Below, piece by piece: positions 13,429 through 31,812 of a DNA stretch of 45,982 nt. The position numbers were made by a program, and so were the translations under genes. The notes below the pieces were generated by a model. The model made no database searches. It saw nothing but the letters and a program-made list of their open reading frames with translations, and was not told where the DNA came from. This DNA is from Sphingobacteriaceae bacterium. GTDB taxonomy: Bacteria; Bacteroidota; Bacteroidia; Sphingobacteriales; Sphingobacteriaceae. The stretch is taken from NCBI GenBank assembly GCA_947479815.1, contig CANKAT010000017.1:1-45982 (forward strand). The letters are read 5' to 3'. The first letter of the stretch is position 1, and every line of letters begins with the position of its first letter.

Positions 13429-13489
13429 ACTTTTGTAAATTACAAGGTTAATAATCTGATTATGTAGTTAGACCTACGATTGGATGATT

Positions 13490-13523
13490 AAAGGCGGGGA
13501 ATGTTAGCGCATTTTTCGCCTTT
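13490..13523 (-). terminator. Hairpin between fecR and susC
   Basis: AAAGGCG at 13490-13496 pairs with CGCCTTT at 13517-13523, with extra inner pairing of AATG and CATT. The hairpin starts six bases beyond the fecR stop codon. It leaves a short TTT run on the minus strand and a six-T run on the plus strand. It probably ends the regulatory transcript, leaving susC to its own promoter in the remaining 60 bases. Confidence 0.55.
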
Positions 13524-13528
13524 TTTGT

Positions 13529-14575
13529 TTAGAAAATTTTTATTTCATTTTCGATTAATTTATAGTGAAAGGATTTTATTAATTGCATGGCTTCTAAGGC
13601 CTGTATAATATTCTCTTTTATAAAAACACCAGTAAAACGATATGATTTTATGGCAGGATCATTTAGAACAATCTTCACATTATACCAGCGTTCTAATTTT
13701 GGCATTAGCTCTTCAAAAGATTCGTTTTCAAAAACTAATTTATTTTCTGTCCATGCTATTTCTTCAATGTATTCCTGATCTCCCAATTTTACAGGAGAGA
13801 TATTGTCTATCATCAGCACTGAGCTTGCACCCTTTTTTAACTTATTATTAATATTATTAACCAATGCAAGTTTTTCTGATGGCTTTAGAAGAAATTTCTG
13901 ATCAGAACGATCATTAATAGTTAATTCAATAGATCCTTTGATAAGTGTGGTTTCCGACTCCTTATCACCTGGATAATCTCTAACATTAAACTCAGTACCC
14001 AATACTTTGATCGCAACCTTATTGGTCTTTACAATAAATGGACGCTTCTTATCATGTGCAACTTTAAAAAAAGCCTCTCCTATTAATATCACGTCACGCT
14101 GATCATGACTTTGCATATCCAGATCATAAGAAAGCTTGCTATCACTATTTAACCTTACATAAGTACCGTCTGGAAGTTTAATTTCCTTCCTTATACCTTT
14201 AGCGGCATAAATATCTACACGTACTTCTTTAGTTGTGGAATGATAATATTCAGAAAAATAAAGGCTGGTTGAAAATATGATAAATGTGATAATGGAGATA
14301 ACAAGTACGTGATTTTTTAAATAGCTATAGAGTACTTTTTCTTTAATTTCAAAATCAAGATCATCCTGCTTGCTTAGTTTATGCTTATCAAAAGCCTCAT
14401 CAAGGTCATTTTGACTACCTTCTTGACCCAAATCCCATACTTGATCTAATAAAGCCTCGTAATATACTGCATCAGGGTATTTTGTCAATAAATATGACAA
14501 TTCACCAAGCTCATCCGGCGTAGCTTCCCCAGCAATTTTCCGGGTTAATAATTCAACTATGCGATTTTCATGCAT
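13529..14575 (-). CDS. FecR family anti-sigma factor
   Basis: This 348-residue inner-membrane protein has a cytoplasmic N-terminal segment (1-87) that should bind the sigma factor, one membrane helix at about 88-107 (HVLVISIITFIIF), and a periplasmic FecR domain with the motif LPDGTYVRLNSDSKLSYD near 134-151. The C-terminal part (FENESFEELMPKLERWYNV) is the conserved STN-like end domain that contacts the transporter. It is encoded between the sigma factor and susC. By analogy with FecIRA it releases the sigma factor when the SusC STN domain reports substrate. Confidence 0.92.
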   Translation of the reverse strand: MHENRIVELLTRKIAGEATPDELGELSYLLTKYPDAVYYEALLDQVWDLGQEGSQNDLDEAFDKHKLSKQDDLDFEIKEKVLYSYLKNHVLVISIITFIIFSTSLYFSEYYHSTTKEVRVDIYAAKGIRKEIKLPDGTYVRLNSDSKLSYDLDMQSHDQRDVILIGEAFFKVAHDKKRPFIVKTNKVAIKVLGTEFNVRDYPGDKESETTLIKGSIELTINDRSDQKFLLKPSEKLALVNNINNKLKKGASSVLMIDNISPVKLGDQEYIEEIAWTENKLVFENESFEELMPKLERWYNVKIVLNDPAIKSYRFTGVFIKENIIQALEAMQLIKSFHYKLIENEIKIF

Positions 14576-14664
14576 GACAATTCAAACTCATTATATGGGG
14601 CGTTTTATATAAGGACAATAAAAAATGAAAAACTCCCTAGTCGGAATTAACATTTATTTAGAAC

Positions 14665-15234
14665 TTATTTAATTTGGAACTCAGATTTAAAGATCTTAGC
14701 TAATTTTTGAGTGGCTGCTACCAAATGGGCATCAACAGTTTTTACTGAGATAGCGAGGATCTCTGCTATTTCCTTGTAACTTAAATTATTTTCTTTTGCA
14801 AGCTTAAATACAAGCTGACATTTTGGGGGTAATGACTGAATTGCGTTTTCCAGCCTCATTTTCAACTCATTATCTATAATAATCTGTTCAGGACTTGAGC
14901 TATCAAAGAAAAAACTAATGTCAGTATCGTCAAGTGAAGATGTTTTATTTTTGGAATTTTTCTTCAGAACATTAAGTGAGAGGTTTTTTGTAATAACAAG
15001 AGAGTAAACATAGACATTTGTTATTTCAACTAAAGTCTTGCGCTGTTTCCATAAGGTCATCATCATGTCTTGAGCAACCTCTTCTGCTTCTTCATTAGAA
15101 TGCAGTATACAAAATGCAAATTTCTTTGCAGGCAAGAATAAAAGATCAAAAAGTTCCCTATAAGTCTGCTCAGAGCCAAAATGGGCTAGACGCGCAACAA
15201 TATCAGGAAGCTTATTAAATTGCCGTTTCACCAA
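14665..15234 (-). CDS. ECF RNA polymerase sigma factor
   Basis: This 189-residue protein has sigma-70 region 2 at about 25-95 (including AEEVAQDMMMTLWKQR) and region 4 at about 130-182 (LPPKCQLVFKLAKENNLSYKE up to SVKTVDAHL), with no regions 1 or 3, as expected for an ECF sigma factor. It lies 89 bp upstream of the FecR anti-sigma gene and is divergent from the PKD protein gene. Its likely target is the susC promoter of this locus. Confidence 0.93.
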   Translation of the reverse strand: MVKRQFNKLPDIVARLAHFGSEQTYRELFDLLFLPAKKFAFCILHSNEEAEEVAQDMMMTLWKQRKTLVEITNVYVYSLVITKNLSLNVLKKNSKNKTSSLDDTDISFFFDSSSPEQIIIDNELKMRLENAIQSLPPKCQLVFKLAKENNLSYKEIAEILAISVKTVDAHLVAATQKLAKIFKSEFQIK

Positions 15235-15715
15235 AATTTTATTTTGTCTAATTCTAAGTTAGCAGAATTTTTATCAAATCAAAGCTTCTTTTTAACACTA
15301 ATTCGCAGAAGGTGAAAAGTTAAAGGCATACAAAAAGCTCTTTTTAAATATATAAAGTAATATTCTCAATAAAAATTCTTGGTGTTACATCTGAAATACT
15401 TTAAATTCCTAAGCTAAATTGACCTTCCGAAAATATGGAAGATCAAGTAAATAAAATACCTATAACTAAAACACATTTACATTGGTTCTAATTGAAAAAT
15501 TCATACTTTTTTAGTCAAATAATGCCTCCAAAATCAATCCTAATTTTATCAAAATATTCAGATGTGCCTTTTGGTCTTCAGCGAAGATTGGCCAGCGGTT
15601 TTACGGGCCGATTTATACATAAATTGATTTAGAGCTTTTTAAAAAACAAAGTGTAATTTTCCGAACAAGAACTGTAAAGCAAATACTATCAAAACGAAGA
15701 TTAAATCTATAGCAT
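15235..15715. other. Divergent intergenic region
   Basis: This region of about 480 bases separates the minus-strand sigma gene from the plus-strand PKD gene. It holds a candidate sigma gene promoter (15254-15283), a small hairpin formed by GACCTTCC and GGAAGATC at 15421-15444, and otherwise AT-rich sequence with no recognisable gene or RNA. Confidence 0.55.
15254..15283 (-). promoter_or_regulatory. Candidate Bacteroidota-type promoter for the ECF sigma gene
   Basis: On the minus strand TTTG (15280-15283) is followed after 18 bases by TAACTTAG (15254-15261). The Bacteroidota housekeeping pattern is TTTG, about 19 bases, then TAnnTTTG, so the -7 box has one mismatch. It would start transcription a few bases upstream of the ATG at 15234. 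Confidence 0.4.
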
Positions 15716-16882
15716 ATGAAAAATAAAATCGTCTTGAACTTCCAGATAAATAAAATAGCTTGGTTAATTATCCTTTTACTTTTAACAGGAAATATATTGG
15801 ATACGAATGGCCAGCCTACCCCAACCTACAACACGGCAAGAAACGGCAAAATATTCCAAATCTTTCAATTTCCCAGAAATCAAATGCCACGAATCGACGG
15901 CGATAAAAGTGATTGGGACATGGTGCCTAAAAACTATACGTATGGAACAAATCTTTTAAACGATACTGAAGATGGTATAGGCACCAACATCGATCCAAAA
16001 GATCTCGACGTAAAAGTGAAAATCGGCTGGGTAAAAGACTTGAATCGTATCTATTTTCTTTACGAGGCCTATGATAATTTTTGGGATTTTGAACGTTTCA
16101 ATCCCGAAGGTTATTTGAACGATATTTTTGAATTGGTTGTGGACGGTGATTTGTCTGGTGGTCCATTTATTCAAAATCCCTCATTAGATCCTGCCAAACT
16201 AAAATGGCAACCTCAAAGCCCTTCCTATATCGAAAACCACTTTAACTTTAGCGGGGTGCATGCACAGAATTACCACATTTTCACACCCCCTGTAAACAAT
16301 GCATGGGTATTGGTATGGGGTAACCAATCTTGGATTTCTGAGTTTCCGCATGCAAACCAGGCCTATTCTTACAATTTTAAACATGGCGAAAGCGGAACTT
16401 TGATTTTGGAAGGATGGATTACTCCATATGACTATGCTCCGTACGAAGGGCCGCAAAGGGCCATAGAATCTGAACTAAAGGAAAATAAGGTTATCGGCCT
16501 TTCATGGTCAATATTAGATTTTGATGGGGGTAAAAGAGAAGGCCATGTCAATCTCTCCCATAATGTTAAAATGGTTAGTAATGCCTCCTATCTTTGTGCA
16601 TTTCAATTAATGCCTTTAGAAAAAGAATTTTTGGAGCCCATTAAGGCAGCATGGACGTTCAAAGTTATCGACGAGGAAAAAGGAATGATAGCCTTCAAAG
16701 ATGAATCCATTGGATCGATAGAAAAATGGAGATGGGATTTTGGCAATGGTGAAACCTCAACAGAACAAAATCCGATTCATTCTTTTAAACAAAAAGGGGT
16801 ACGCAATGTGATTACCTTAGAGGTTGAAGGCCCCAAAGGTAGCTCTAAACGTACCCGGTATTGGGAAGTGATAATACGGTAG
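15716..16882 (+). CDS. Secreted protein with CBM9-like and PKD domains
   Basis: This 388-residue protein has a signal peptide (about residues 1-33, ending NGQ). Residues about 55-290 resemble a family 9 carbohydrate-binding/DOMON-like beta sandwich: it opens with PRIDGDKSDWD and continues through KIGWVKDLNRIYFLYEAYD. The C-terminal 80 residues form a PKD domain (WRWDFGNGETSTEQNP). Such proteins are usually secreted and bind polysaccharide, but no catalytic domain is visible. It stands alone on the plus strand between two minus-strand blocks, so no operon supports a function. Confidence 0.75.
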   Translation: MKNKIVLNFQINKIAWLIILLLLTGNILDTNGQPTPTYNTARNGKIFQIFQFPRNQMPRIDGDKSDWDMVPKNYTYGTNLLNDTEDGIGTNIDPKDLDVKVKIGWVKDLNRIYFLYEAYDNFWDFERFNPEGYLNDIFELVVDGDLSGGPFIQNPSLDPAKLKWQPQSPSYIENHFNFSGVHAQNYHIFTPPVNNAWVLVWGNQSWISEFPHANQAYSYNFKHGESGTLILEGWITPYDYAPYEGPQRAIESELKENKVIGLSWSILDFDGGKREGHVNLSHNVKMVSNASYLCAFQLMPLEKEFLEPIKAAWTFKVIDEEKGMIAFKDESIGSIEKWRWDFGNGETSTEQNPIHSFKQKGVRNVITLEVEGPKGSSKRTRYWEVIIR

Positions 16883-17000: not shown

Positions 17001-17047
17001 ATTTTTATGCCTATATGTGTAACCCTATGTTAGGACAAGGCTGTTAC
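17001..17047 (-). repeat. 47-bp direct repeat, copy A (possible insertion-sequence end)
   Basis: This copy matches 19464-19510 at about 40 of 47 positions without gaps, in the same orientation. On the minus strand it opens with GTAACAGCCTTGTCCTAACA. The TAA stop codon of the beta-helix gene lies inside the repeat. No transposase remnant is visible next to this copy, unlike copy B. Confidence 0.65.
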
Positions 17048-19134
17048 TTTTTTGGACCTGTTGATCTTCGTGGCCCAACAGAGCTCATATCGATGGCATT
17101 GAACCCCAGTTTCAAAGCGGGCGAACCTGATTTTAGTGAAAAATTGTAATTGGCAGCATCTACAAACATCGGATCGGCATATTGAGAATGAATATCCTTT
17201 CCAGCCTTTTGCCATTCAGCCATGCTTTTGCCGTTAAAGTCAATTTCTGAAAGGCTTTTTGATGGATTGAAATAAAGGTTTCGATCCATTTCAAATGTTG
17301 AAGTTAGCTTCTCTTCTCCTTTATGGATGGGATGGTAATAAAACGTATAGGGTTCGTCATTCCATTTATTATCTAACAATATTCCTTCCTTCCAGAAAAT
17401 AATGTTGTTTTCGAAATAAACACTTTGATGTGGTTCACTGCGGCTGCGGCTTAGCTGCTGTAATCTTCCCAATGCAAAAATATTATTCCTGACGGTAAGT
17501 TCTTTTGCGAAATGAATGTTGTATCCTGCGAATTTGGTATTGTAAACGATATTGTTTTCGATTAAAATATGAGTTGAGCCTTCATCGTTGTAAATTCCCC
17601 ATCCTCCGTAACGATTGGCATCCACATCATGGATGAGGTTATTTCGTAAAACAGTACCTGGCGAAACTCCGAGGGTATAAATTCCACCCATATCCGAAAG
17701 TAATCCCTGACCGATATGATGAATATGATTGAATTCGATGACATTATCGCGGCTAATACTTCGTTTGTAGCTCCAAACCCAGCCAACCGAAATCCCGGTA
17801 TAAAAACCATCATGGATCAGGTTATGAGCCACATAATTGCCTTCTGTTTGTTGCAATAGAATTCCAACAGCCGATGGATACTTCTGACCGTAATACCCAA
17901 TTTCATTATCTGTAAATTCATTTTTGGCCGTTCTCAAAAAAGGAGAATCTACAAAAGTTGCGCCATTTACCTTGAATCCGCCGGCGGCAATTTGGCTAAT
18001 CTGATTGTTTTTAAAACGATTGCCAACGCATCCTGCTTGCAGATCAAAAGCCCAGTTTCCCAGCTGAGTAAATTTACAATTACTGAATTCGCAATTGCGA
18101 GCTCCTTTCAAAGTAACCGACGCAGAAATGGTTGATGAGCCTTGTCCGTTATTTGTATCACCTTCAGAAAGCTGGAAATTGGTATACCGAAATTCAATAT
18201 TCCTAAAGGTAATATCTTCAACAAATTGCTGGTTTTCGGGGTCGCCTTCCAAACGAACCAATTCTTTTATGACTGGAGCAAAGAATGAAACATCTTCAGG
18301 TTTTTCTTCTGGGAATGGGAAATAGCTCAGTTTCCCGGTTTTTCGATCAAGGTACCATTCGCCAGGAGAATCCAATTCTTCCATCACATTTTCAACTACA
18401 TAACGGGCTCCTTCTTCATTAAAATCGTCAGCAAATACTTTTTTTGAAGGATGTGTAAACGAGAGAAGGTTATTCTTTTCATCAATCGATTCAATAGATA
18501 GGTGGGTATCTGTCCAGAAATGGTAAACTATCACTTCAGCATCACCCAAATTGGTCCATTTTGGGTTTATATCTCCTTTAACAAATTCAAACTTCTGACT
18601 TGCTTTATTATAACCTGTAGTTTTTGGTGTTCCATCTGGCATTCCTTTTACACGTAGAAAACCGTTGTTGGGCTTCCGTGCTCGGGGTCGCGAATCACCA
18701 TTGACAAAAAGTTGATTAAATTTCCATTGTCCAGCAGCAACTTCAGGAATCGTGGTGATCCACCATCCATTTTTCTGCTTTTTCCAGCCTTTTATTTCCC
18801 GTCCGCCACTTAGGATCACAGCTTGATCCTGATACCGGTCAATCAGCATCGCTTGTTTTTTTGATCCTTCAGCTACCGGTTTTATTATCAGGGGTTTCTT
18901 TAGTTCATAGGTACCTCCCATCAATAAAATGGTTGCAATTTCTTCAGGCTTGGATAGTTTTCCGTTTTTTCGGATCTCATCCACAGCCTTTTGGATGTTT
19001 GCAAATGGTTTTTCGGGTTGAGATCCGGAATTCAGATCATTTCCATTTGGTGAAACATAATAGGTTTGGGCTTTGGATTCAAGTTGAATTCCTAAAAAAC
19101 AAAATAATAAAAGCAGACTAGATAAAATTTTCAT
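17044..19134 (-). CDS. Secreted right-handed parallel beta-helix protein
   Basis: This 696-residue protein has a signal peptide (1-23, ending ESKAQ). The N-terminal pattern YYVSPNGNDLNSGSQPEKPF at 25-44 is typical of beta-helix polysaccharide-active proteins, and residues about 300-600 carry repeated short strands such as NVIEFNHIHHIGQ and NNLIHDV. The fold is shared by polysaccharide lyases and by glycoside hydrolases such as GH141; I cannot assign one. It is the last minus-strand gene beyond the ebo block but is separated from it by a transposase fragment, so membership of the ebo operon is doubtful. Its stop codon lies in a repeat that recurs upstream of the gene. Confidence 0.82.
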   Translation of the reverse strand: MKILSSLLLLFCFLGIQLESKAQTYYVSPNGNDLNSGSQPEKPFANIQKAVDEIRKNGKLSKPEEIATILLMGGTYELKKPLIIKPVAEGSKKQAMLIDRYQDQAVILSGGREIKGWKKQKNGWWITTIPEVAAGQWKFNQLFVNGDSRPRARKPNNGFLRVKGMPDGTPKTTGYNKASQKFEFVKGDINPKWTNLGDAEVIVYHFWTDTHLSIESIDEKNNLLSFTHPSKKVFADDFNEEGARYVVENVMEELDSPGEWYLDRKTGKLSYFPFPEEKPEDVSFFAPVIKELVRLEGDPENQQFVEDITFRNIEFRYTNFQLSEGDTNNGQGSSTISASVTLKGARNCEFSNCKFTQLGNWAFDLQAGCVGNRFKNNQISQIAAGGFKVNGATFVDSPFLRTAKNEFTDNEIGYYGQKYPSAVGILLQQTEGNYVAHNLIHDGFYTGISVGWVWSYKRSISRDNVIEFNHIHHIGQGLLSDMGGIYTLGVSPGTVLRNNLIHDVDANRYGGWGIYNDEGSTHILIENNIVYNTKFAGYNIHFAKELTVRNNIFALGRLQQLSRSRSEPHQSVYFENNIIFWKEGILLDNKWNDEPYTFYYHPIHKGEEKLTSTFEMDRNLYFNPSKSLSEIDFNGKSMAEWQKAGKDIHSQYADPMFVDAANYNFSLKSGSPALKLGFNAIDMSSVGPRRSTGPKK

Positions 19135-19528: not shown

Positions 19529-20683
19529 TTACACTTTTGTTATTAAATGATTAGGAAAATCCTTTACATTTTCGCAACAAATCTGTTCCATAACTTGCTG
19601 TAACTCTGTTTTTAATAAGGATATAGTATGATTGCCGCCTTGAGATCCCAATGCCGCTACCCCGTACATAAATGAGCGCCCCATGAACGTAAATTCCGCA
19701 CCAGATGCTAGAGTTCTTGCTATATCAGGGCCCGAACGGAGTCCGCTGTCCATCATCACCTTGATTTGGTCTCCGTATTCTTTGGCAATTCGGACCAATG
19801 GTTTTATAGTCGATTCACCCGCATCCAATTGACGTCCTCCATGGTTGGATACGATGATTCCATCCAAGCCCAAACGAACCGCCACTTCGGCATCTGCTTC
19901 ATTGGCTACTCCTTTAAGCACCAATTTACCTTTCCACATATCACGAATGGGCTTTATTTTTTCCTCATTCAACCTTCCTGAGAAAGTTTGATTCATAAAG
20001 TTGCCCAATTGTTTCAGATCTAGATTTTTGGGCATATACGGTTTTAACGTCTCAAAACTGGGTTGCCCATGCACTAGAGTCTTTAATGCCCATTCCCATT
20101 TAGTCATTATTTGGAGGATATTTTTGACCGACATTTTGGGAGGCATAGCAAGCCCGTTTCTTATATCCCTTGGTCTAAAACCAAAAGAGGGCACATCGCA
20201 AAGAATTACCAAAACCGGACAACCTGCAGCATCCGCCCTTTTTATAATAGCGTCTCTCATGCTGTCTTCGGTAGGGTGATACAGTTGAAACCAGGCCTGC
20301 CCTTCTGTAATCTCGGCTATCCGTTCAATACTGCTGGTAGTAACCGTGCTCAGGATAAAAGGTATATTGTGATCAAAAGCAGCCTTAGCTAAAATCTCAG
20401 GTGCGTTGGGCCACATTAACCCTTGCAGCCCCACTGGAGCGATACCAAAAGGAGCATCATACGTATGTCCGAACAATTCCGTTTTCATATCAGACTTGAT
20501 ATGGTTTCTCAAATAATAGGGCAAAAGTTCAACTTCACGAATATCAGAGGTGTTTTTATGTAGGTTTACATCTTCATTACAGCCGCCATCCAAGTATTCA
20601 AATGCGAATCTTGGGATTTTTCGTTCTGCTTTTTGTCGTAAATCGTGTACTGAAGGATACTTACTGTTAATTTTTAATTCCAC
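19529..20683 (-). CDS. FMN-dependent alpha-hydroxy-acid oxidase/dehydrogenase
   Basis: This 384-residue protein lacks a signal peptide. It has the whole set of FMN-dependent 2-hydroxy-acid oxidase motifs: FEYLDGG at 28-34, the FMN lysine in LKG (K257), the catalytic pair in SNHGGRQLD (279-287; H281 as base, R284 for the carboxylate), and the phosphate-binding segments DSGLRSGPD (312-320) and FMGRSFMYG (333-341). The family oxidises lactate, glycolate, mandelate or related 2-hydroxy acids to 2-keto acids. It lies 92 bp downstream of PLP enzyme copy 2 in the ebo block, so it may form a keto acid used or made in that pathway. Catabolic lactate use is the plain alternative. Confidence 0.9.
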   Translation of the reverse strand: MELKINSKYPSVHDLRQKAERKIPRFAFEYLDGGCNEDVNLHKNTSDIREVELLPYYLRNHIKSDMKTELFGHTYDAPFGIAPVGLQGLMWPNAPEILAKAAFDHNIPFILSTVTTSSIERIAEITEGQAWFQLYHPTEDSMRDAIIKRADAAGCPVLVILCDVPSFGFRPRDIRNGLAMPPKMSVKNILQIMTKWEWALKTLVHGQPSFETLKPYMPKNLDLKQLGNFMNQTFSGRLNEEKIKPIRDMWKGKLVLKGVANEADAEVAVRLGLDGIIVSNHGGRQLDAGESTIKPLVRIAKEYGDQIKVMMDSGLRSGPDIARTLASGAEFTFMGRSFMYGVAALGSQGGNHTISLLKTELQQVMEQICCENVKDFPNHLITKV

Positions 20684-20775: not shown

Positions 20776-22068
20776 TTATTTTACTGAAGCAATCTCTGTA
20801 ACCGCTTTTACGAATTTATCTAGTTCAGCCAAACGAGTATATACATGGGGAGTTACGCGAACACAGTTGGCTGTATCGTATACAATTGGAACGGTATGAA
20901 TTTTATATTCATTAAACAATTTACTATCCAGATCTCTCGGGTTAACCCCATCAATACTGATGCCGCATATTGCACATGAATATTCAGGTTTTAAAGAAGT
21001 GTGAATTTTAACCCGAGGAATTCCCTTCAGCTTCTCAACCCAATAATTTTTTAAATAGCGAACCCGATCTTCTTTCCTCTTACTCCCTATCGCATTATGA
21101 AAATTAATTGCCTCACCAATACCCTGCTCAATAGGGAAACTTCGAGTACCAAGGGTTTCAAATTTTCTAATATCTGACGATTTAGGATTTGGATTACAGA
21201 CCAAAGGCCAAATTTTTTCAATTTTTTCTTTTTTGATGTACAGCATCCCGCTTCCAATTGGAGCACTTAAAAACTTATGCAAGGATGTTCCAAAATAATC
21301 ACAGTGAAGATCCGGGATTTTAAAGTCAAGTAATCCAAAAGAGTGTGCTCCATCGCAAATCACTTCAATTCCATACTTATGTGCCATATCAGATATTTTT
21401 CTAACTGGCATAATTTGTCCAACCCAATTCACAATATGTGTTACGTGAATAATCTTAGTCTTGGGGGTGATCGCTTTCTCATAGGCTGCTACTATTTCTT
21501 CATCATTTTCTATTGGGAATGAAAAGCTGAGCTGCTTATAAACTATACCCTCGCGCAGAGCACGTTGCTTCCAGGCACTCATCATATTTGGATAGTCAAG
21601 CATTGCTCCAATAACTTCATCTCCAGCCTTTAAATCCAATCCGAAAATAATGGTGTTTAATGCTTCTGTAGCATTTCTGTTGATTGCAATCTCTTCCTTT
21701 TCACATCCTGCAAGATTGGCAAGGCTTTCACGCAAGGGTTCACGTCCTTGGTCCAGTATCCTCCACATAAAATAGGAAGGACCCTCATTAGATAATTTAT
21801 TATATCGTTCAACTGCTTCTTGAACAACACGAGGCGAAGGACTAACTCCACCATTATTAAGATTTATAATATTAGGACTAACGGTGTAGGATTGTTGAAT
21901 GACACTCCAATAATCTTCATTGGAGGCAATTGCTTCAGAACTTAAATTTTTTACCAGATTATTTGCTGAAGATATTTCTTCGGCGTGTAATTGATTAAAC
22001 AAACTGTTTGCTGAGAAAGCTCCGGCCATTAAGCCTAGCTGCTGTAAGAATTGTTTACGTCCTGACAT
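20776..22068 (-). CDS. Exported class V aminotransferase-fold PLP enzyme (copy 2, ebo-linked)
   Basis: This 430-residue protein aligns without gaps to copy 1 (6549-7841), with about 79% identity by my count. The PLP lysine K265 (TSLHKFLSAP) and CDGAHSF (D239, H242) are kept, as is the N-terminal SGRKQFLQQ export signal, an RK variant of the Tat motif. Differences cluster at residues 41-50, 291-300, 321-350 and 381-400, while the active-site blocks are unchanged, so both copies probably bind similar substrates. It follows eboF by 96 bp in the same direction. Its predicted periplasmic site suggests it acts on a product moved by the ebo system, but no reaction can be assigned. Confidence 0.87.
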   Translation of the reverse strand: MSGRKQFLQQLGLMAGAFSANSLFNQLHAEEISSANNLVKNLSSEAIASNEDYWSVIQQSYTVSPNIINLNNGGVSPSPRVVQEAVERYNKLSNEGPSYFMWRILDQGREPLRESLANLAGCEKEEIAINRNATEALNTIIFGLDLKAGDEVIGAMLDYPNMMSAWKQRALREGIVYKQLSFSFPIENDEEIVAAYEKAITPKTKIIHVTHIVNWVGQIMPVRKISDMAHKYGIEVICDGAHSFGLLDFKIPDLHCDYFGTSLHKFLSAPIGSGMLYIKKEKIEKIWPLVCNPNPKSSDIRKFETLGTRSFPIEQGIGEAINFHNAIGSKRKEDRVRYLKNYWVEKLKGIPRVKIHTSLKPEYSCAICGISIDGVNPRDLDSKLFNEYKIHTVPIVYDTANCVRVTPHVYTRLAELDKFVKAVTEIASVK

Positions 22069-22164: not shown

Positions 22165-23535
22165 TCAACCTGAATGACCATCGTTTTTTCTTAGTGATGA
22201 TAGAATAACATTAACTACTTGATTAGCATAAATGGATGAGCCTTCCTGTTTTTGATCCGTAATTAATACCGGATGATACTCAGGCTTAGCCCCTATTCTT
22301 CCATGTGATCCTTTAATCAAATTTGCATCCAGCGGTATAACATCCATTACATACCTGAAGCCAGCCTTCTTTTTCAATAATTTATATCCCGCTCTAAGTT
22401 TTGAACTCATAAACATCTCAACTGGATCGTAACCAGGTTTTTTGTGGATATCCACACAACGCGCATAATCAGGCGCCTTTGCATCATCCTGCCAGAAATA
22501 ATACGTAAACCAGCTGTCTTGATCGGACATTAAAACTAAATCTCCTGAACGCTCGTGGTTAATATGATAAGATGCCTGCTCCTTTTTATCAAGAATAAGT
22601 TCCACACCTGAAACACCTTTCAGTAATTCCATTACCTGATCCTTAACCGATGGATCATTGATATACACATGGGCAATCTGATGATCGGCTACTACAAATG
22701 CTTTTGAAGCTCCCGGATCCAATAATTCTAGTCCGCGTTCTATCCGAACCTCCAATAAATCATGCTCTCTGAAAAGACGATTTAAATGTATAGGATTTTT
22801 AACCGGTGATATTCCATATTCAGAAAGCAGAATAATTTCTGCCCCTTTGTTCTCATAAAATGCGATCAAGCCTTTTAGAACCTCATCAATTTCAGTTAAC
22901 TCGTTGTTTATCTTAGTAAAATCAGGACCAAATTTTTGAAGGCAATAGTCAAGATGCGGAAGATAAATTAAAGTAAGGGTAGGATCATGCAGATCATCTG
23001 TAAGCATGGATGCATCCGCAATCCATTGAGTTGATTTAATATTGGCACCAGGGCCCCAAAACTGAAATAATGGGAAAGTACCCAATTTTTGCTGCAGCAC
23101 ATCACGTAAGCTTGCTGGATGAGAATAACAATCAGGCATTTTACGGCCATCGGCTAGGTAATTAGGCCTGGGGGTTACTGCATAATCGGCACTAGAATAC
23201 ATGTTATACCACCAGAACATAGTTGAACAGGTGAAAGCAGGGTCCTCTTTTTTTGCAATTTCCCATATTTTTTCACCGCTAACCAGCTTATTAGATTGCT
23301 TCCAGAATTTAACCTCACAGTCTGTACGGTCATACCATCCATTGCCCACAATTCCGGTTTCTGATGGCCACTTGCCTGTCAGATAAGTTGATTGTGCAGA
23401 GGTGGTTAATGCCGGTAGCAAAGGATCAATCCTTGTCAGGTGTTTACGGCTTACATAATTGCTCAAAAATGGCATATACTCCCCGATGAGCGAAGTTGAA
23501 AGTCCAACTACATCTATTACGACTGTTTTCTTCAT
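22165..23535 (-). CDS. eboF: EboF: alkaline-phosphatase/nucleotide-pyrophosphatase-fold protein
   Basis: This 456-residue protein has the alkaline-phosphatase superfamily fold of nucleotide pyrophosphatase/phosphodiesterases but no signal peptide. D8 (VIDVVG) and the threonine nucleophile in LPALTTSAQST (T44 or T45) are present, and a late histidine (KGSHGRIG) fits the last metal ligand. The other metal ligands differ from the classic pattern: the PDxxGH box reads LDYCLQKFGP, with D196 kept and Q200 at the histidine position, and the DHG box reads SEYG (E239, Y240). It follows eboE by 10 bp, the usual ebo order, so I assign it as EboF. Whether it is catalytic is open. Confidence 0.85.
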   Translation of the reverse strand: MKKTVVIDVVGLSTSLIGEYMPFLSNYVSRKHLTRIDPLLPALTTSAQSTYLTGKWPSETGIVGNGWYDRTDCEVKFWKQSNKLVSGEKIWEIAKKEDPAFTCSTMFWWYNMYSSADYAVTPRPNYLADGRKMPDCYSHPASLRDVLQQKLGTFPLFQFWGPGANIKSTQWIADASMLTDDLHDPTLTLIYLPHLDYCLQKFGPDFTKINNELTEIDEVLKGLIAFYENKGAEIILLSEYGISPVKNPIHLNRLFREHDLLEVRIERGLELLDPGASKAFVVADHQIAHVYINDPSVKDQVMELLKGVSGVELILDKKEQASYHINHERSGDLVLMSDQDSWFTYYFWQDDAKAPDYARCVDIHKKPGYDPVEMFMSSKLRAGYKLLKKKAGFRYVMDVIPLDANLIKGSHGRIGAKPEYHPVLITDQKQEGSSIYANQVVNVILSSLRKNDGHSG

Positions 23536-23545
23536 CAGATTATTT

Positions 23546-24754
23546 TTATTCTAATAGGCCCTTAACCCAGTTCAACTCCCTAATGATACTCTGATCAATG
23601 GGCATTTTTAACGATTCAGGAAGCACTTCCCAGGTATACGTTTCAACTTCTAAATGATTAGAAAAAGGTATACTCTTCTGAATTTTCAAAACTTCAACAA
23701 TATCCGATTGAGTAGATCTAAGAAGCTGGAGGTTTTCAGCAAATACAGGAACATGGAAATGTGCACGCCATTCTTTCACCATCGGGTTTAACGAGTCGGC
23801 CAAAGCTTCCGGAAGATCTCTGTACCGAATCAAGGAATGATCCAGGTTTCTGGCAACTACCTGGTGCAAATAAGTAGGTTCATTATATTTTGAAAATGCA
23901 TCAGCTATACCTGCTCTTGAATTAATATCGGTAGGCATATCCGCTTTTAGCGCTGCACTGATCTGAATCTTTCCTGTTCTTATTCCTTTTGTGTCAAGCT
24001 GTTCCAAAACTTCAGAATGTTGTTCATACCCTATGGCGAAATGACAGACATCGTAACATAAACAAATATGTTCTTTAATACAGGCTTCAACCTCTGACTC
24101 ACTCATGTTCAAACGAACAGTCAAAATTGACTTTGCCATCGGGATCAACATATTTTCATACCAGACTATAAATTCAGCCCCGGTTTCAAGCATGCCATCG
24201 GGTTCTGGTTCAATATCCAAGTGCATTCGTATGCCGTTCGTTATGTTGAACTTATACAACTCTTCGGCAACAAGAATAATATTGCGGGTTGCTCTATTTT
24301 TTGCCTCTTCAGACAATTTTTTTGTTGGAAACCAATGTCGATAACTAAGCGGAGATGTAGAAATTCCGCCTTCCATTCCCTCCGGTAAAAGTTCAGCAAG
24401 AATCTTAAAAAGCCTGATTGTATATTCAAGTCGCTCCTGGCTTGTCCAATCGGGCGCATGAACCTGATCCTTCACAATTGCATGATGAAAATCGCCGTAA
24501 GGGAAGCCATTCATGGTAAAAACGTAGGCCTGATGATCACTCAACCAGTCTTTAAAAATCTGTATTTCATTCGGATCAAGGAGGTCGGTACTGGCAGAAT
24601 TTGACAAACGCAAACCAATACCCATAGGCTGCCCAGGGCTTACCTCTTTTTTTATGGTAGGAAAATTTTTCTTTATGGCCTCAAAATGATCCATCCAGCT
24701 TTCACCTGAATGTATATTGGTGCAATAGCTTAAATACCCAGACGCAAGTTTCAT
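23546..24754 (-). CDS. eboE: EboE: metabolite traffic protein, xylose-isomerase-like TIM barrel
   Basis: This 402-residue cytoplasmic protein opens with the EboE signature MKLASGYLSYCTNIHSGESW and continues as a xylose-isomerase-like TIM barrel (RMHLDIEPEPDG and CLCYDVCHFAIGYEQH carry the likely metal ligands). Its start overlaps the stop of eboD in an ATGA (24751-24754), which points to translational coupling. EboE is needed with the other Ebo proteins for moving a secondary-metabolite precursor to the periplasm in scytonemin-producing cyanobacteria; its chemistry is unknown. Confidence 0.92.
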   Translation of the reverse strand: MKLASGYLSYCTNIHSGESWMDHFEAIKKNFPTIKKEVSPGQPMGIGLRLSNSASTDLLDPNEIQIFKDWLSDHQAYVFTMNGFPYGDFHHAIVKDQVHAPDWTSQERLEYTIRLFKILAELLPEGMEGGISTSPLSYRHWFPTKKLSEEAKNRATRNIILVAEELYKFNITNGIRMHLDIEPEPDGMLETGAEFIVWYENMLIPMAKSILTVRLNMSESEVEACIKEHICLCYDVCHFAIGYEQHSEVLEQLDTKGIRTGKIQISAALKADMPTDINSRAGIADAFSKYNEPTYLHQVVARNLDHSLIRYRDLPEALADSLNPMVKEWRAHFHVPVFAENLQLLRSTQSDIVEVLKIQKSIPFSNHLEVETYTWEVLPESLKMPIDQSIIRELNWVKGLLE

Positions 24755-25881
24755 GCCTTAACACGTAATAAATGGGAAGCTTTTTTCAGCATTTCAGGAT
24801 CTATCTCATGAACTTCAATACCCTGTCCAATTTTTTGAAGCAGCATAATAGTCAGCTCGCCACCCAGGTGTTCACGAAATTCTTCCAGGCCCAGCAGGAT
24901 TGGTGAATTTTTGTCATTGATATCCATCATTGGATGTACCAGATCAAAACCTAGCTTATTTAAAAGATTGATAATTCTTTGGCTTTCTGGTTCAGACAAA
25001 TAACCTATTAAATTAGAATAGACGGTATCAAGGGCAATTCCCATCGCTACTGCCTCGCCATGCAGCACGTCAAAATTTGACAATTGCTCAAGCTTATGGG
25101 CACTCCAATGACCAAAATCTAGCGGACGGGAAGATCCTGATTCAAATGGATCAAGGCCTGCAATATGCTGCATGTGCAGTTCGGCACATCTGCATATCAG
25201 ATAATTCATTGCTTGGCGATCACGCTTAACCAACGCATCTGCATGGTTCTCAATCCACTCAAAAAATACGGGATCTTTAATGAGCGCAACTTTCACGGCT
25301 TCAGAGATGCCCGACCTGTAATTTCGATCGGTGAGGGTATCTATAAAAAGTTCATCGTTAAACACTGCAATTGGAGGAGCAAAGGTTCCTAGAAAATTTT
25401 TCTTTCCGAAATAATTAATTCCATTCTTTACCCCAATGCCGGAATCATTCTGTGATAATACTGTAGTAGGTATTCGAATATGCCGGATACCTCGATGGGA
25501 AACTGCAGCAGCATACCCTACAAGATCCAATACAGAACCACCACCAATAGCTGCTATATACGAATGCCTATCTATTTTATGCTCATTAACTGCCGCTAGT
25601 ATCTGATCAAAATATTTGATATCATTCTTTAGAATCTCGCCCCCAGGAACGATCAGAATTTCAGGAACTAATTGTACTGCATGATGCAATTTAAAATACT
25701 CTTTCAACTGCTGAACCACCTCAACCCCTACACCTTCATCTACAACAAAAAGGATTTTACGTATGATGCCGGGTCCTTTCAAAAAATCATTCAAAAGCGT
25801 ATTCGATGGGCTAAAAAGTCCGGAAGTAAAAAATACTTTGTATTCAAATTTTACATGGAATGATTGTTGAAGGTATTTCAT
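24751..25881 (-). CDS. eboD: EboD: 3-dehydroquinate-synthase-like sugar phosphate cyclase
   Basis: From the ATG at 25881 this is a 376-residue member of the sugar phosphate cyclase family; an upstream TTG at 25902 is possible but less likely. The NAD-binding GGGSVLDLVGYAAA motif, RIPTTVLSQNDSGIGVKNGI, and the three zinc ligands are all visible: glutamate in SGISEAVK, histidine in LDFGHWSAHKLE, histidine in VLHGEAVAMGI. It therefore looks catalytically competent. It is placed between eboC and eboE, so it is the ebo paralogue and not the shikimate-pathway AroB. Substrate of EboD is not established. Confidence 0.9.
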   Translation of the reverse strand: MKYLQQSFHVKFEYKVFFTSGLFSPSNTLLNDFLKGPGIIRKILFVVDEGVGVEVVQQLKEYFKLHHAVQLVPEILIVPGGEILKNDIKYFDQILAAVNEHKIDRHSYIAAIGGGSVLDLVGYAAAVSHRGIRHIRIPTTVLSQNDSGIGVKNGINYFGKKNFLGTFAPPIAVFNDELFIDTLTDRNYRSGISEAVKVALIKDPVFFEWIENHADALVKRDRQAMNYLICRCAELHMQHIAGLDPFESGSSRPLDFGHWSAHKLEQLSNFDVLHGEAVAMGIALDTVYSNLIGYLSEPESQRIINLLNKLGFDLVHPMMDINDKNSPILLGLEEFREHLGGELTIMLLQKIGQGIEVHEIDPEMLKKASHLLRVKA

Positions 25882-25952
25882 AGTAGGTATGTGCTCTTGC
25901 AAATAATCGGCTAGGCCTGTTATTTAAATCTGATGATAAAGATAGTTTTCAA

Positions 25953-26834
25953 TTAAGTAACAGCAAAACGTTTTGCAAGCCACAAAGATAATGGCAGCAA
26001 TAATGCAATACAGATTGCTGCAACTGGAGATCCAAAAACTGCCGACCAAGCAGCGTCCATTAAGATTAGAGAAATAACTCCTGCTTTAACCGCCTTGCCA
26101 ATATTCTTTCCAATAGGTTCCTTAATTGCTGTAAACAGGGGTCTGAATATCATCCATGCAAATGGGATGATGAAAAATAAGGCGATTAAGACCTGCCCTT
26201 TGGTCCAGGATAGGTAAAGCATGCTACTGATTACTAGGAGGTATAAAAAAGCTCCATAATAAAGCTTATTTCTATTCGAACCGTGTACTTCTCCCTGACT
26301 GATCATGGTTATTGAAAAAATATAGATCAAGGGGATTATACCTAGAAAATACCACTCATTGAGAGAAGCAGCTATGATACTTATACCGAGTAAAAGATTT
26401 AGTCCTCTGCAGAGTCCCATGTTCAAAGGCCCTAGAAATGAATGATGCTTTGCATATTTATTGTAGAGCAGCGCAAAAAAAGCAATCAAAATTGCAATAA
26501 TTCCGGATAGTACAGCGATTGTAAAGGCAGCTGCAATACCCGATAATAAAAGAAAAGCTCCTAGGAAAATGGCTTCATTCAATTTAACAGCCCCACTGGG
26601 TATTGCGCGTTCAGGTCGTTCAATCTTATCCAACTCTGTATCAAAAACATCATTAAAAACAATCCCGCCTCCATATAATCCTATCGTAGAAAAACAAAGC
26701 ATTAACACCGGGAAATAGTCTGTTTCTAAAGTCAGCAAGTAGCCTGAAATTGCAATCCCCGCCAAAACATCTGCAACAGAAGTTACAATGTTGGCCGGTC
26801 GCATTAACCGAAAAAAGTTCATGATCTTTTTCAA
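25953..26834 (-). CDS. eboC: EboC: UbiA-like prenyltransferase family membrane protein
   Basis: This 293-residue protein has eight to nine predicted membrane helices and the first UbiA aspartate-rich motif NDVFDTELDKIERPERAIPS at about 61-80, which binds the magnesium-prenyl diphosphate. The second motif region is around YNKYAKHH. EboC is the only clear integral membrane member of the set and is thought to anchor the system or modify a lipid-linked substrate. It lies 6 bp downstream of eboB and 50 bp upstream of eboD. Confidence 0.92.
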   Translation of the reverse strand: MKKIMNFFRLMRPANIVTSVADVLAGIAISGYLLTLETDYFPVLMLCFSTIGLYGGGIVFNDVFDTELDKIERPERAIPSGAVKLNEAIFLGAFLLLSGIAAAFTIAVLSGIIAILIAFFALLYNKYAKHHSFLGPLNMGLCRGLNLLLGISIIAASLNEWYFLGIIPLIYIFSITMISQGEVHGSNRNKLYYGAFLYLLVISSMLYLSWTKGQVLIALFFIIPFAWMIFRPLFTAIKEPIGKNIGKAVKAGVISLILMDAAWSAVFGSPVAAICIALLLPLSLWLAKRFAVT

Positions 26835-26840: not shown

Positions 26841-27824
26841 CTAGCTGATGATGATCGATGATTTATCTGTTCTTGGTTGCTGACCACCCCGAAGCACGGT
26901 ATTGCCTGCAAATTTTTCTGTTTGATCAACTGATAAGGGAGTGATAAAATCATTCTCATCAATCTGCCCACTTTGTGCAAATGCTGTGATGGCGTTAGAA
27001 TAGGTAATCATTTTGATATCCTCATCACTAATACCCTTCAATTTCATCAAGGCTGCCGTTTTTGGCACAGCTAATGGGTCGCTGATGCCCCAATCTGCTG
27101 CAGAATTAATCATGATACGCTCCGGACCATACAACTTTGCGAGCTCTACCATACGCTCATTACCCATTTTAGTGAAGGGATATATTGTAAATGCTGCCCA
27201 AAATCCGCGATCAAGAACTTCTTTGACAGTTTCCTCATTGTTATGATCAATGATCACCATTTTAGGATCTATACCATGTTCAATGGCAATATCCATACTT
27301 CGTTGAGTGCCCTTTTTCTTATCCCTGTGAGGAGTATGGATCTGAATTGGGAGTCCTGCTTCTTTGGCAAGTTCAAGCTGCATTCGGTAATACTTATCTT
27401 CAGCCGCAGTTTGGTCATCAAAACCGATTTCACCTATCCCAACTACGCCTTCTTTATAGATAAAAAGTGGCAGGAGTTCCATTACTTCTTCGGCCAATCT
27501 TTCATTATTTGCTTCGCGCGAGTTTAACCCGATGGTACAATAATGTTTAATTCCAAATTGGGAAGAGCGAAACCGCTCCCAACCTACAAGGCTACTGTAA
27601 TAATCACGAAAGCTATCAATACCCGTACGGGGCTGGCCTAACCAGAAAGCAGGCTCAATCAATGCCACAATTCCCGCATCTGCCATTGCCTGATAGTCAT
27701 CGGTAGTTCTGGAGCTCATATGAACATGTGGGTCGAAAAACTTCATACCCTTGATGATATCCAAATTCATAGCTTCAGCTACAACCTGGGGTTTTCTGTC
27801 GTCAAATGAATGGCTACAACACAT
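26841..27824 (-). CDS. eboB: EboB: TatD-family metal-dependent hydrolase
   Basis: This is a 327-residue TatD-type TIM barrel. The metal site is complete: HVH at 33-35 (FFDPHVHMSSR), glutamate in GIGEIGFDD, histidines in QIHTPHRDK and VIIDHNNEE, and aspartate in SAADWGISDP. The first 18-26 residues look non-conserved; starts at M19 (27770) or M27 (27746) are possible, the latter beginning MKFFDPHVH as in other EboB proteins. It follows eboA by 18 bp. The reaction is unknown, though hydrolysis of a phosphoester or lactone-like bond would fit the fold. Confidence 0.9.
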   Translation of the reverse strand: MCCSHSFDDRKPQVVAEAMNLDIIKGMKFFDPHVHMSSRTTDDYQAMADAGIVALIEPAFWLGQPRTGIDSFRDYYSSLVGWERFRSSQFGIKHYCTIGLNSREANNERLAEEVMELLPLFIYKEGVVGIGEIGFDDQTAAEDKYYRMQLELAKEAGLPIQIHTPHRDKKKGTQRSMDIAIEHGIDPKMVIIDHNNEETVKEVLDRGFWAAFTIYPFTKMGNERMVELAKLYGPERIMINSAADWGISDPLAVPKTAALMKLKGISDEDIKMITYSNAITAFAQSGQIDENDFITPLSVDQTEKFAGNTVLRGGQQPRTDKSSIIIS

Positions 27825-27842: not shown

Positions 27843-28718
27843 TTATTCTTCAGGAGTAAGACTACTCCAGTTAAGTTCTTTGTTTTCAATTGCTTTTAAT
27901 AGTTCGGGATAGGACTTTAACAAGTTTTTAGCCAAAACAGAATCAGACTGATATGCCGTTAGCGCTGCAGCCTGCCTGTCTCTTAGGCTCCCCTCCCCAA
28001 ACAGTCGTTTAAGATCAGTCAAAAGGTCATCATCAATAAATTTGCTTGTTAATCGCCAGAGATGTGGATTTATCTTTCTATTCGCTGCCCAGCGCTCATG
28101 GGCAAAATCAACAAGTGTTGAGGCAAGTTCAGCATTAGCGCGTTCATCTATTCCCGATATCTTATTTAAATCCTTTCCTGTAAAAAAAGCTTTAAGAATC
28201 AGCTGATTCCATGCTTTTTCATCAAGGTAGCTAATCGGGTAGGGATTTTTATACATAATAGCCTCAAGTACGAGTCCAATATTGCTCCTAACACCTTCAG
28301 CACATCTCATTAACCATAATTCTGGCCATGCAAATAAAGGCAACGAAGAATATAGTGCTACCAGTTCATTTACCTCAGCAGCGAGAAATAAATTCTCAAT
28401 AGTCTTAACATATTTTTCTTTATCTGTGGGATCAAGATGTAAGAGTAAACAAAGCCGGCCTATTCTGTCAATTGTCCATCCTTCTAAAGTAAAACCAGGC
28501 TTGAGCTTTTCAATTTCAACCCATAATTCATGGTTGATAGCGATTGGCAATTTCCCTGTTTTCCTGGGCATCATGGCAAAAGCTGAATTAACAGCTGAAG
28601 TTTCAGGAGCTAAGAATTTTTCACTTAACCAATGCCAGGTTTCTTCAGTTACATTGGAACGGGTGAGCTCAGTAATGAGTACCCTAAATCTTTCTGCATC
28701 GTAATCAAACATGCCCAC
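27843..28718 (-). CDS. eboA: EboA domain protein
   Basis: This 291-residue protein opens the ebo cluster. It is helix-rich with no signal peptide or membrane segment and no recognisable enzyme motif; sequence such as LPLFAWPELWLMRCAEGVRS and NPHLWRLTSKF matches the EboA family pattern. Its place directly before eboB-F in the canonical order is the main support. Function of EboA is unknown. Confidence 0.85.
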   Translation of the reverse strand: MGMFDYDAERFRVLITELTRSNVTEETWHWLSEKFLAPETSAVNSAFAMMPRKTGKLPIAINHELWVEIEKLKPGFTLEGWTIDRIGRLCLLLHLDPTDKEKYVKTIENLFLAAEVNELVALYSSLPLFAWPELWLMRCAEGVRSNIGLVLEAIMYKNPYPISYLDEKAWNQLILKAFFTGKDLNKISGIDERANAELASTLVDFAHERWAANRKINPHLWRLTSKFIDDDLLTDLKRLFGEGSLRDRQAAALTAYQSDSVLAKNLLKSYPELLKAIENKELNWSSLTPEE

Positions 28719-28802: not shown

Positions 28803-29177
28803 TCAAATACCACCTGACACAAAATAATTCAAGGCAAGAGCTGCTGAAATAATCAGTAAACCAAAAAATTCACGAGTCTTTTCAATATAAGGTTTTGTTG
28901 CCTTCATACTTTCAGTGATACTTGGAGTATGATACTTGGTTATCCAATCACGGACACCATCCTTACCAAAGAACAAAATCAATGCATAGATTAAGTAAAA
29001 TGCGATAAAAAAAAGGTAGACCAACGGAAAATACAAGTCAAAACCAGCAATTCCGCATAAAATGGAGGCTACCATATAAATGGGTACCCAAAGCCAGGAA
29101 TCGCTGTCATTTAAATTAACCCAGGCAAATGCCAAAAAGAAAAGGCAGAAAATGCTATTCAGGATGAGCAGTAACAT
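28803..29177 (-). CDS. TMEM220-family small membrane protein
   Basis: This 124-residue protein has four predicted membrane helices (about residues 1-20, 29-45, 48-68 and 103-122) and the motif WVNLNDSDSWLWVPIYM near 19-35 seen in the transmembrane 220 family. Function of the family is unknown. It lies 84 bp upstream of eboA in the same direction with no clear terminator between, so it may be transcribed with the ebo genes. Confidence 0.75.
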   Translation of the reverse strand: MLLLILNSIFCLFFLAFAWVNLNDSDSWLWVPIYMVASILCGIAGFDLYFPLVYLFFIAFYLIYALILFFGKDGVRDWITKYHTPSITESMKATKPYIEKTREFFGLLIISAALALNYFVSGGI

Positions 29178-30923: not shown

Positions 30924-31811
30924 ATGTCAAAAAGCACCTATAAGATAGCTGTATTACAGCTAAACCTGAATGATATTGCAGAAAACAATTTAAAAAAATG
31001 CATTGCCTGGGTACGTGAGGCCGCCAAAAAAGGAGCAGAAGTTATCTCACTGCCAGAATTATACAGCAGTCATTATTTCTGCCAGACAGAAGACACAGAG
31101 AATTTTGCATTAGCTGAACCGCTATATAGCACCTCTTTTATTGCTTTTAGCGCGCTTGCAAAGGAACTTGGAGTAGTAATCATTGTACCTTTCTTTGAAA
31201 AAAGAATGGCAGGTATTTATCATAATAGTGCATACATTATTGATACCGATGGGTCAGAAGCTGGATTATACCGCAAAATGCATATCCCAGATGATCCTCA
31301 TTTTTATGAAAAATTCTATTTTACACCTGGAGATATCGGATTCAAAACTTTTCCTACTCAAAAAGGCAACATAGGGACACTAATCTGCTGGGACCAATGG
31401 TACCCAGAAGCTGCAAGATTAACGGCTTTGCAGGGAGCAGAGGTATTATTTTATCCTACAGCTATTGGATGGCACCCTTTAGAAAAAGCTGAATACGGTG
31501 AAAAACAACACGGGGCCTGGATGAATGTAATGAAGGGGCATGCTGTGGCAAATGGTGTTTATGTAGCTGCAGCAAATCGCATCGGACTCGAAAAATATGT
31601 GCCTGGCACTGAAGGGATTCAATTCTGGGGCTCTTCCTTTATTGCTGGCCCGCAGGGTGAGATACTGGCACAAGCATCTCATGATCAAGAAGAAATTCTG
31701 ATCGCAGATGTTGACCTTCAACTCCAAGAGAATGTACGCCAAAACTGGCCATTTTTCAGAGACCGAAGGATTGATGCTTATGGTGATATTACAAAAAGAG
31801 CGATCCTTTAA
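30924..31811 (+). CDS. aguB: N-carbamoylputrescine amidase
   Basis: This 295-residue nitrilase-superfamily protein hydrolyses N-carbamoylputrescine to putrescine, CO2 and ammonia. The triad is E45 (LPELYSSHYF), K118 (YRKMHIPDD) and C155 (ICWDQWYPEAARL). The length and the KMHIPDDP segment fit the AguB subfamily. The agmatine deiminase gene starts one base after the stop codon, which supports the assignment and suggests co-translation. Confidence 0.93.
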   Translation: MSKSTYKIAVLQLNLNDIAENNLKKCIAWVREAAKKGAEVISLPELYSSHYFCQTEDTENFALAEPLYSTSFIAFSALAKELGVVIIVPFFEKRMAGIYHNSAYIIDTDGSEAGLYRKMHIPDDPHFYEKFYFTPGDIGFKTFPTQKGNIGTLICWDQWYPEAARLTALQGAEVLFYPTAIGWHPLEKAEYGEKQHGAWMNVMKGHAVANGVYVAAANRIGLEKYVPGTEGIQFWGSSFIAGPQGEILAQASHDQEEILIADVDLQLQENVRQNWPFFRDRRIDAYGDITKRAIL

Positions 31812-31812
31812 T

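Follow-up and report, generated by a model that had tools for sequence, protein, structure and literature searches.

Two long-separated PvdN-like PLP enzymes in an ebo-SusCD locus of a Sphingobacteriaceae bacterium

A 45,982-nucleotide stretch of DNA from a Sphingobacteriaceae bacterium (contig CANKAT010000017.1; hereafter referred to as the window) carries two similar genes for PLP enzymes, one behind an ebo cluster and the other within a SusCD uptake locus. Are the two genes recent duplicates, and do they tie the two systems to each other? An earlier note on this DNA had argued from them that the compound handled by ebo and the one imported by SusCD share a chemical group, for example an amine or amino acid.

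Two PLP enzyme genes, an ebo cluster and a SusCD block

The genes described below between positions 5 and 29177 are on the reverse strand, with one exception that is indicated. Copy 2 (20776–22068) starts 96 bp after eboF and copy 1 (6549–7841) directly follows a SusD gene; each has an ATG start and encodes 430 residues. The two proteins were aligned by BLASTP with zero gaps, 339 of the 430 residues being identical (79%) and 385 positive. The coordinates, the lengths and the gapless ~79% identity given in the earlier note were thus borne out, and so were the contexts that it described, copy 1 lying in a sigma/FecR SusC/SusD locus and copy 2 after EboF. Its statement that the active-site blocks are unchanged holds for the core strings LNNGGVSPSP, INRNATEALNT and SLHKFLSAPIGSGM, but not for their flanks, which differ by M162H and G260A. 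Copies 1 and 2 are the only close family members in the genome of the window, where three further matches were 25–33% identical over partial lengths. One of these three (44319–45605; N-terminus MERSTFLKS), a third class V PLP gene of the window, is about 25% identical to both copies and directly follows the SusD gene of a second sigma/FecR/SusC-like/SusD locus, the SusC-like ORF of which is so called without a family scan.

Both copies matched PF00266 (Aminotran_5) at 125.8 and 128.8 bits, respectively (cut-off, 21.5), and K265, which we take to be the PLP lysine from its place in an SLHK motif, is invariant. The best NCBIfam models for both were those of PvdN and SufS, each far under its cut-off: 127.4 and 144.6 bits against 650 for the PvdN equivalog NF051467, and 126.0 and 133.3 bits against 475.1 for SufS TIGR01979, with the SufS-type alignments stopping ahead of the catalytic cysteine loop. 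An AlphaFold2 model of copy 2 (29 alignment rows; mean pLDDT, 85.9; pTM, 0.87) matched the PvdN structure 5i90 with a Z score of 44.2 (rmsd, 2.0; 370 aligned residues; 21% identity), in a tie with the C-DES cystine lyase (Z, 43.5). Foldseek ranked plastid Nfs2 first and PvdN second for this model, and SufS-type structures were also among the top matches. PvdN of Pseudomonas is Tat-exported and takes part in periplasmic pyoverdine tailoring. The window enzymes resemble it in their predicted class V fold of fold-type I, in the tied top Z score and in the best NCBIfam model, but differ from it in their scores of 127 and 145 bits against the cut-off of 650 and in an RK, instead of RR, N-terminal motif; the Pfam scan, which covered 30 window proteins, named no pyoverdine gene. 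Among 117 rows of the PLP family, in which seven genomes of the genus and at least one other genome are entered twice, the N-termini were Tat-like by pattern with RR in 93 and with RK in 20, and 4 gave no match, although two of these four (G054 and G050) show RR by eye. Both window copies have RK, as against the twin-arginine RR of the 93 rows. From their N-termini, copies 1 and 2 are probably exported proteins, the RK weakening the Tat prediction.

The window contains all of eboA–F. EboA (27843–28718) scored over the cut-off of its domain model (NF035938; 167.2 bits, cut-off 50) but under that of its family model (NF035937; 222.1 bits, cut-off 320). It is followed by the TatD-type metal hydrolase EboB (26841–27824; PF01026), the UbiA-like prenyltransferase EboC (25953–26834; NF035940, 400.2 bits, cut-off 250), EboD of the sugar phosphate cyclase type (24751–25902; NF004852 (PRK06203), 553.6 bits, cut-off 333), EboE (23546–24754; NF035939, 494.7 bits, cut-off 250) and the phosphodiesterase-type hydrolase EboF (22165–23535; PF01663), EboB and EboF being named from Pfam class and position. 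Upstream of eboA lies a gene for a small membrane protein (28803–29177), presumably TMEM220, which we use as a working label; it is next to ebo in many loci of the genus. Further upstream, at 30924–32850, the called ORFs of a carbon-nitrogen hydrolase and a peptidyl-arginine-deiminase-family protein share about 100 bp, and this pair stays near ebo in G016, G008, G019 and G009.

Copy 2 is followed by a gene for an FMN-dependent alpha-hydroxy-acid dehydrogenase (19529–20683; PF01070), a pair also found in G016 (L034), and by a gene for a GH141-type beta-helix protein (17044–19134; PF13229, PF21231) that G016 lacks at the corresponding place. A PKD-domain protein gene (15716–16882; PF18911), the only one of these on the forward strand, separates the copy 2 unit from the SusCD block. 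The block of about 10.5 kb (~4930–15396) consists of genes for an ECF sigma factor (14665–15234; PF08281, PF04542), a FecR anti-sigma factor (13529–14575; PF04773, PF16344), the TonB-dependent transporter SusC (SusC1; 9715–13428; PF07715, PF13715, with an STN match just under cut-off), a neighbouring SusD of the SusD-like_2 type (SusD2; 7991–9673; PF12771), copy 1 and an MFS transporter (5054–6331; PF07690). Behind it are genes for a xylose-isomerase-like TIM barrel protein with a signal-like N-terminus (3893–4732; PF01261), a GFO/IDH/MocA dehydrogenase with an RR N-terminus (2471–3766; PF01408, PF22725), a member of the DUF1080/3-keto-disaccharide hydrolase family (1574–2335; PF06439) and, at the contig edge, a metallohydrolase of the amidohydrolase/deacetylase family (5–1279; NF006689, 419.5 bits, cut-off 371). 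A search for a promoter pattern gave one match in the window against 2.75 expected.

This arrangement has points in common with two known types of system. It has the complete eboA–F set, as known from Nostoc scytonemin clusters, Bacteroidota and eustigmatophyte plastids, but joined to SusCD and to genes for predicted exported PLP, oxidoreductase and amidohydrolase enzymes; none of the window proteins that were scanned was assigned to a scytonemin gene. The order sigma, FecR, SusC, SusD, enzymes and MFS is that of SusCD utilisation loci with ECF sigma/FecR control, but here it belongs to an ebo locus, and the first gene behind SusD is that of a PvdN-like enzyme.

Origin of the two copies

We built three protein trees of the PLP family (37, 49 and 23 rows, the second and third from subsets of the collected rows). 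All three pair copy 2 with the G016 gene (support at least 100/99), outside a clade formed by G010 and the copy-1 group (96–97/93–95). A tree in which the copies are not sisters is the outcome that the earlier note itself had named as refuting its proposal, and the AU test rejected copies 1 and 2 as sisters (p = 3.5e-52). It also rejected a clade of the two copies plus G016 (p = 6.4e-6) and a single clade of the ebo-adjacent rows (p = 0.008); a single clade of the rows linked to SusC1 and SusD2 (SusC1D2) was not rejected (p = 0.34). The 12 rows linked to ebo or to SusC1D2 group together in a single clade (100/99). The description of the genes as almost duplicated was overstated, copy 2 being equally near (79%) to genes of Chitinophagaceae.

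A recent duplication inside the locus of this strain, the origin that the earlier note implied, is suggested by the equal length, the gapless alignment and the shared contig, yet comparisons with relatives speak against it. Copy 2 is 96% identical to the G016 gene after eboF, and copy 1 is 92–93% identical to the PLP genes after SusD in G002, G019 and G009 (93% to that of G019). Copies 1 and 2 agree at only 42% of their 124 shared four-fold sites, inside the range of 31–48% observed for 33 of 44 other gene pairs in the genus. Copy 1, moreover, sits in a block that is missing from G008 (see below). Taken with the AU test, the four-fold sites and the empty junction of G008 led us to reject a recent duplication, to which we attach next to no credence. 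Gene conversion between the copies was likewise discarded at the protein level, where 13 windows of 60 residues were compared and copy 1 was in each at least as close to G019 as to copy 2. These results argue strongly that the two copies parted long ago within a single family of Bacteroidota, that of PvdN-like, fold-type-I PLP enzymes with a predicted Tat-type signal.

An rpoB tree (18 rows; G010 partial, G008 without a match and a G011 fragment excluded) groups the window with G016 and G001, and a tree of the joined Ebo proteins (15 rows) groups it with G016, G008 and G001, G008 being nearest. We at one time favoured a transfer of SusC1-SusD2 within the genus, from a four-fold agreement between the window and G019 of 54% for SusC against 30–38% for EboB–F. 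We do not claim this transfer, because rpoB gives agreement of similar height and order (62%, a value that codon bias may affect) and because the tree of SusC plus SusD matches the species order, with support of 71/69; the alternative clade of G002, G019 and G009 was also unrejected (p = 0.27). The four-fold agreement with G017 was 84%, 72% and 69% for the GH141, PKD and TIM barrel genes, respectively, against 29–43% for EboB–F, 40% for GFO and 50% for DUF1080, which suggests a more recent exchange of the former three within the locus.

The two flanking differences mark the clades. In an alignment of 110 rows (6 distant ones excluded, one pair identical), H162 and A260 were fixed in the copy-1 clade (9/9 rows) and absent from the 95 other rows compared; M162 occurred in 97% and G260 in 100% of 92 other rows, and copy 2, G016 and G010 also have both. 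By placement in the class V fold, position 162 is near the start of the helix that follows the PLP-facing loop and position 260 is five residues before K265, so that both sites would be near the cofactor. Since this difference is fixed, the two copies may have different substrates. Enzymes with H162 and A260 are also found directly after eboF, without SusCD, in G006, G017 and G011; the residue change is therefore independent of the context.

Linkage of the PLP gene to ebo and SusCD

Copy 1 belongs to a SusCD block that is present or absent at one junction. As revealed by blastn of MAG contigs against the window, a contig of G008 (L304) aligns with window positions 16597–15397 (94%) and then, 10 bases on, with 4929–2471 (95%); as assembled, it has at this junction none of 4930–15396, the entire sigma-FecR-SusC-SusD-copy 1-MFS block. 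G017 (L037) has the same block-less junction within about 120 bp (15281 and 4894). No shared repeat of 10 or more bases was found between 400-base windows at the two block ends, and there is therefore no insertion-element signature at the block, the G+C content of which is 0.358 as against 0.380 in the remainder. The G016 contig has copy 2, the FMN dehydrogenase and the PKD gene in common with the window, is without GH141 and ends ahead of the junction; SusD2 and a second PLP gene were not found in this 82%-complete assembly. A gain of the block in the lineage of the window would be a simpler reading than a loss.

To place the PLP gene relative to ebo, we searched all 20 genomes of the genus for PLP (E 1e-60) and EboE. 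Ten genomes had a PLP match, nine of which were counted, the match in G014 being only 44% identical. EboE was present in 15, and G010 adds an eboF fragment beside its PLP gene. In each of the nine PLP-bearing genomes, the PLP gene is next to the ebo locus and has an ebo gene, or a fragment of one, on its contig. It lies directly after EboF in G016, G010, G017, G006, G011 (where the gene is split across two contigs and was counted as one by inference) and the window (copy 2), and after SusD in G002, G019, G009 and the window (copy 1). In G002, G019 and G009, the SusCD-PLP block is directly behind eboF. The blocks of G019 and G009 have the gene order of the window block, and that of G002 has it without MFS; an MFS gene follows PLP also, at 50%, in L220. 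The locus of G009 reads EboF-sigma-FecR-SusC-SusD-PLP-MFS-GFO-DUF1080. The locus of G006 reads EboF-PLP-GFO-DUF1080-GSDH-amidohydrolase-SelA-like. G018 and G003 have the same sigma/FecR genes after EboF, followed by another SusCD pair without PLP, and G001 is without SusCD and PLP but retains DUF1080, GSDH, amidohydrolase and SelA-like genes. Seven of the 16 ebo-bearing genomes lack such a PLP gene, among them G007 and G008, the contigs of which end at EboE, and G005, the contig of which ends in EboF. The confinement of PLP to ebo-bearing genomes was not significant among the 20 genomes (9/9 against 7/11; p = 0.094).

Close homologues of SusD2 were found in 4 of the 20 genomes of the genus, and in 1 of 395 genomes of the class, which was its own; all six genomes seen with a homologue of at least 76% have the PLP gene after it. 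SusC1-SusD2-PLP was also seen in the Cytophagales locus L217 (an uncultured Dyadobacter MAG), and SusD2-PLP, cut by the contig start, in L246 (Cytophagaceae bacterium SCN 52-12, also Cytophagales); in both, ebo sits on another stretch.

Outside the genus, the picture is different. A scan of the genome collection gave 456 confirmed PLP relatives, the best 80 of which were kept for context; many of these are from Chitinophagaceae and are 73–79% identical to copy 2. Among the best 80 loci, several of them cut by contig ends, eboF was present in seven, all in genomes of the genus, and SusD2 in five (three from the genus, L217 and L246); 45 of the 80 PLP genes lacked a gene on the same strand within 250 bp. 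Of the 399 genomes of the family, 48 carried the PLP gene (E 1e-150) and 124 EboE. Both occurred together in 5 of the 379 family genomes outside the genus, fewer than expected (odds ratio, 0.33; Fisher p = 0.024), on different contigs in four and about 318 kb apart in the fifth (G262). No PLP-ebo adjacency was seen at the non-genus loci inspected, and none of 20 ebo loci examined from other genera had PLP, SusC1D2 or amidohydrolase. GSDH-type beta-propeller genes, recalling ScyD/ScyE, occur near ebo in several other genera (L163, L170, L175, L283); the sole model match for the GSDH-type protein of the genus was weak (22.9 bits; cut-off, 80).

The argument that near-duplicates in two systems point to a shared chemical group fails, because the copies are not sisters and their family is widespread, mostly without same-strand neighbours. 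The coupling of ebo with SusCD proposed along with it fared better: the two systems are likely tied to each other, because the SusCD-PLP block lies behind eboF in three genomes, all nine PLP genes of the genus adjoin ebo and the 12 linked rows form one clade.

The genes after PLP in the window mostly encode proteins with signal-like N-termini (TIM barrel, GFO/IDH, DUF1080 and amidohydrolase), and relatives add a GSDH-cytochrome c protein and a SelA/DgaE-like PLP lyase, again mostly with such N-termini. The amidohydrolase gene lies downstream of ebo in the window, G010, G017, G011 (on a second contig), G006, G002, G018, G003 and G001. The ebo contigs of G016, G019, G009, G007 and G008 end before its position, and in G016, G008 and G019 it is on another contig with the same neighbours (L303–L305). 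The G005 contig ends in EboF and that of G014 about 2.3 kb after it, with other genes there; no amidohydrolase was found at E 1e-100 in these two genomes. In total, the 20 genomes have 13 full-length orthologues of the locus amidohydrolase and one partial one. Both families are expanded: the window genome has 18 paralogues of the amidohydrolase (E 1e-100) and 14 of the SelA-like enzyme (E 1e-40), and the same 14 of the 20 genomes carry both families (6–25 and 4–18 copies, respectively), the other six having none at these thresholds. These 14 all bear ebo, and two ebo-bearing genomes lack both families (p = 0.003, uncorrected for kinship). Among six amidohydrolase stretches fetched from the window genome, five had both families together and three had SusCD. 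Partly, the copies of the two families form tandem arrays beside SusCD (L297–L302). The pairing resembles that of the DgaE/SelA-like ammonia lyase with amidohydrolase in that both families close the locus in relatives, and differs from it in the signal-bearing versions and in a SelA-like score of 160.8 bits against a cut-off of 385.3. RidA, M19 dipeptidase and MlrC-type genes are near such genes elsewhere in the window genome and would fit amino-acid chemistry. It is possible that the ebo-SusCD locus belongs to a larger, amino-acid-directed programme.

Possible chemistry of the locus

The evolution of the PLP pair is strongly supported; what follows on its chemistry is conditional. The reading that we prefer, although we regard it as evenly balanced between right and wrong, is that a PvdN-like periplasmic enzyme acts on an amino-acid-type group within a variable, ebo-headed processing locus of the genus, copy 2 with the FMN dehydrogenase behind eboF being the form shared with G016. 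The PLP enzyme would work in the periplasm and form an external aldimine with an alpha-amino-acid-type group of a compound supplied by SusC1D2, by Ebo translocation or by both. It would remove or alter that group by decarboxylation, elimination or deamination, after which GFO/IDH, DUF1080, amidohydrolase and SelA/DgaE-like enzymes and the MFS carrier would complete the pathway; the shared substrate and this direction of the pathway are presumed. DUF1080 proteins are described as including characterised or proposed 3-keto-sugar hydrolases (PMC9007349), the role of Nostoc ebo as delivering a precursor into the periplasm to an enzyme located there (PMC6282210), and PvdN as thought to decarboxylate and oxygenate its substrate (PMC7497351); EboC-type enzymes of other genera are described as farnesylating quinolines, 8-HQA best (PMC9235831). 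Together with the signal-like enzyme set, this literature on DUF1080, EboC and PvdN makes it the most economical proposal that a PLP enzyme acts in the periplasm on a group of the amino-acid type.

Other readings accommodate parts of the same evidence. Copy 2, with M162 and G260, could tailor the Ebo-translocated compound, as ScyE is proposed to tailor scytonemin, and copy 1, with H162 and A260, could act on a SusCD nutrient, the locus but not the substrate being common. The clade-fixed residues, the pairing of copy 2 with the same FMN dehydrogenase in G016 and the independent presence or absence of the copy-1 block all fit such a division, but the H162/A260 enzymes found directly after eboF without SusCD do not, and we consider it possible though rather unlikely. 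The association could also be one of neighbourhood only, a broadly useful exported PLP enzyme having landed in a recombination-prone cargo site where ebo and SusCD chemistry are separate. The region is indeed a mosaic by its four-fold agreement with G017, the SusCD block and GH141 come and go, the SusCD types vary among genomes and PLP relatives are mostly solitary. We nonetheless judge this explanation unlikely, since the nine PLP genes of the genus all lie next to ebo, since among the compared rows one PLP clade is made up solely of ebo- or SusC1D2-linked members and since the block is directly behind eboF in three other genomes. That the copies are housekeeping paralogues of cysteine desulfurase or selenocysteine lyase, to which they are related by superfamily and by the SufS-type structures among the top matches, is highly improbable in view of the SufS scores (126 and 133 bits; cut-off, 475), the Tat-like N-terminus and the highest Z scores, which belong to PvdN and C-DES.

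The preferred reading of a periplasmic PLP step could be extended, by analogy and as little better than a long shot, to a loop in which an Ebo-built prenylated molecule would be exported, tailored by the PvdN-like enzyme in the periplasm and taken up again through SusC1D2 under sigma/FecR control; ebo would then be a metallophore or signal system of Bacteroidota. 8-HQA, for its part, is a metal chelator. Our search of the open-licence literature found no publication that describes such a PLP enzyme at an ebo or SusD locus, and on the ebo compound in Bacteroidota it yielded only that EboC-type enzymes prenylate quinolines in vitro.

A locus that unites ebo with an outer-membrane transporter of the nutrient type and with probably exported enzymes offers a concrete handle on a poorly understood pathway. 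Its two PLP enzyme copies, with two fixed clade differences and a block that is present or absent, constitute a natural experiment on specificity.
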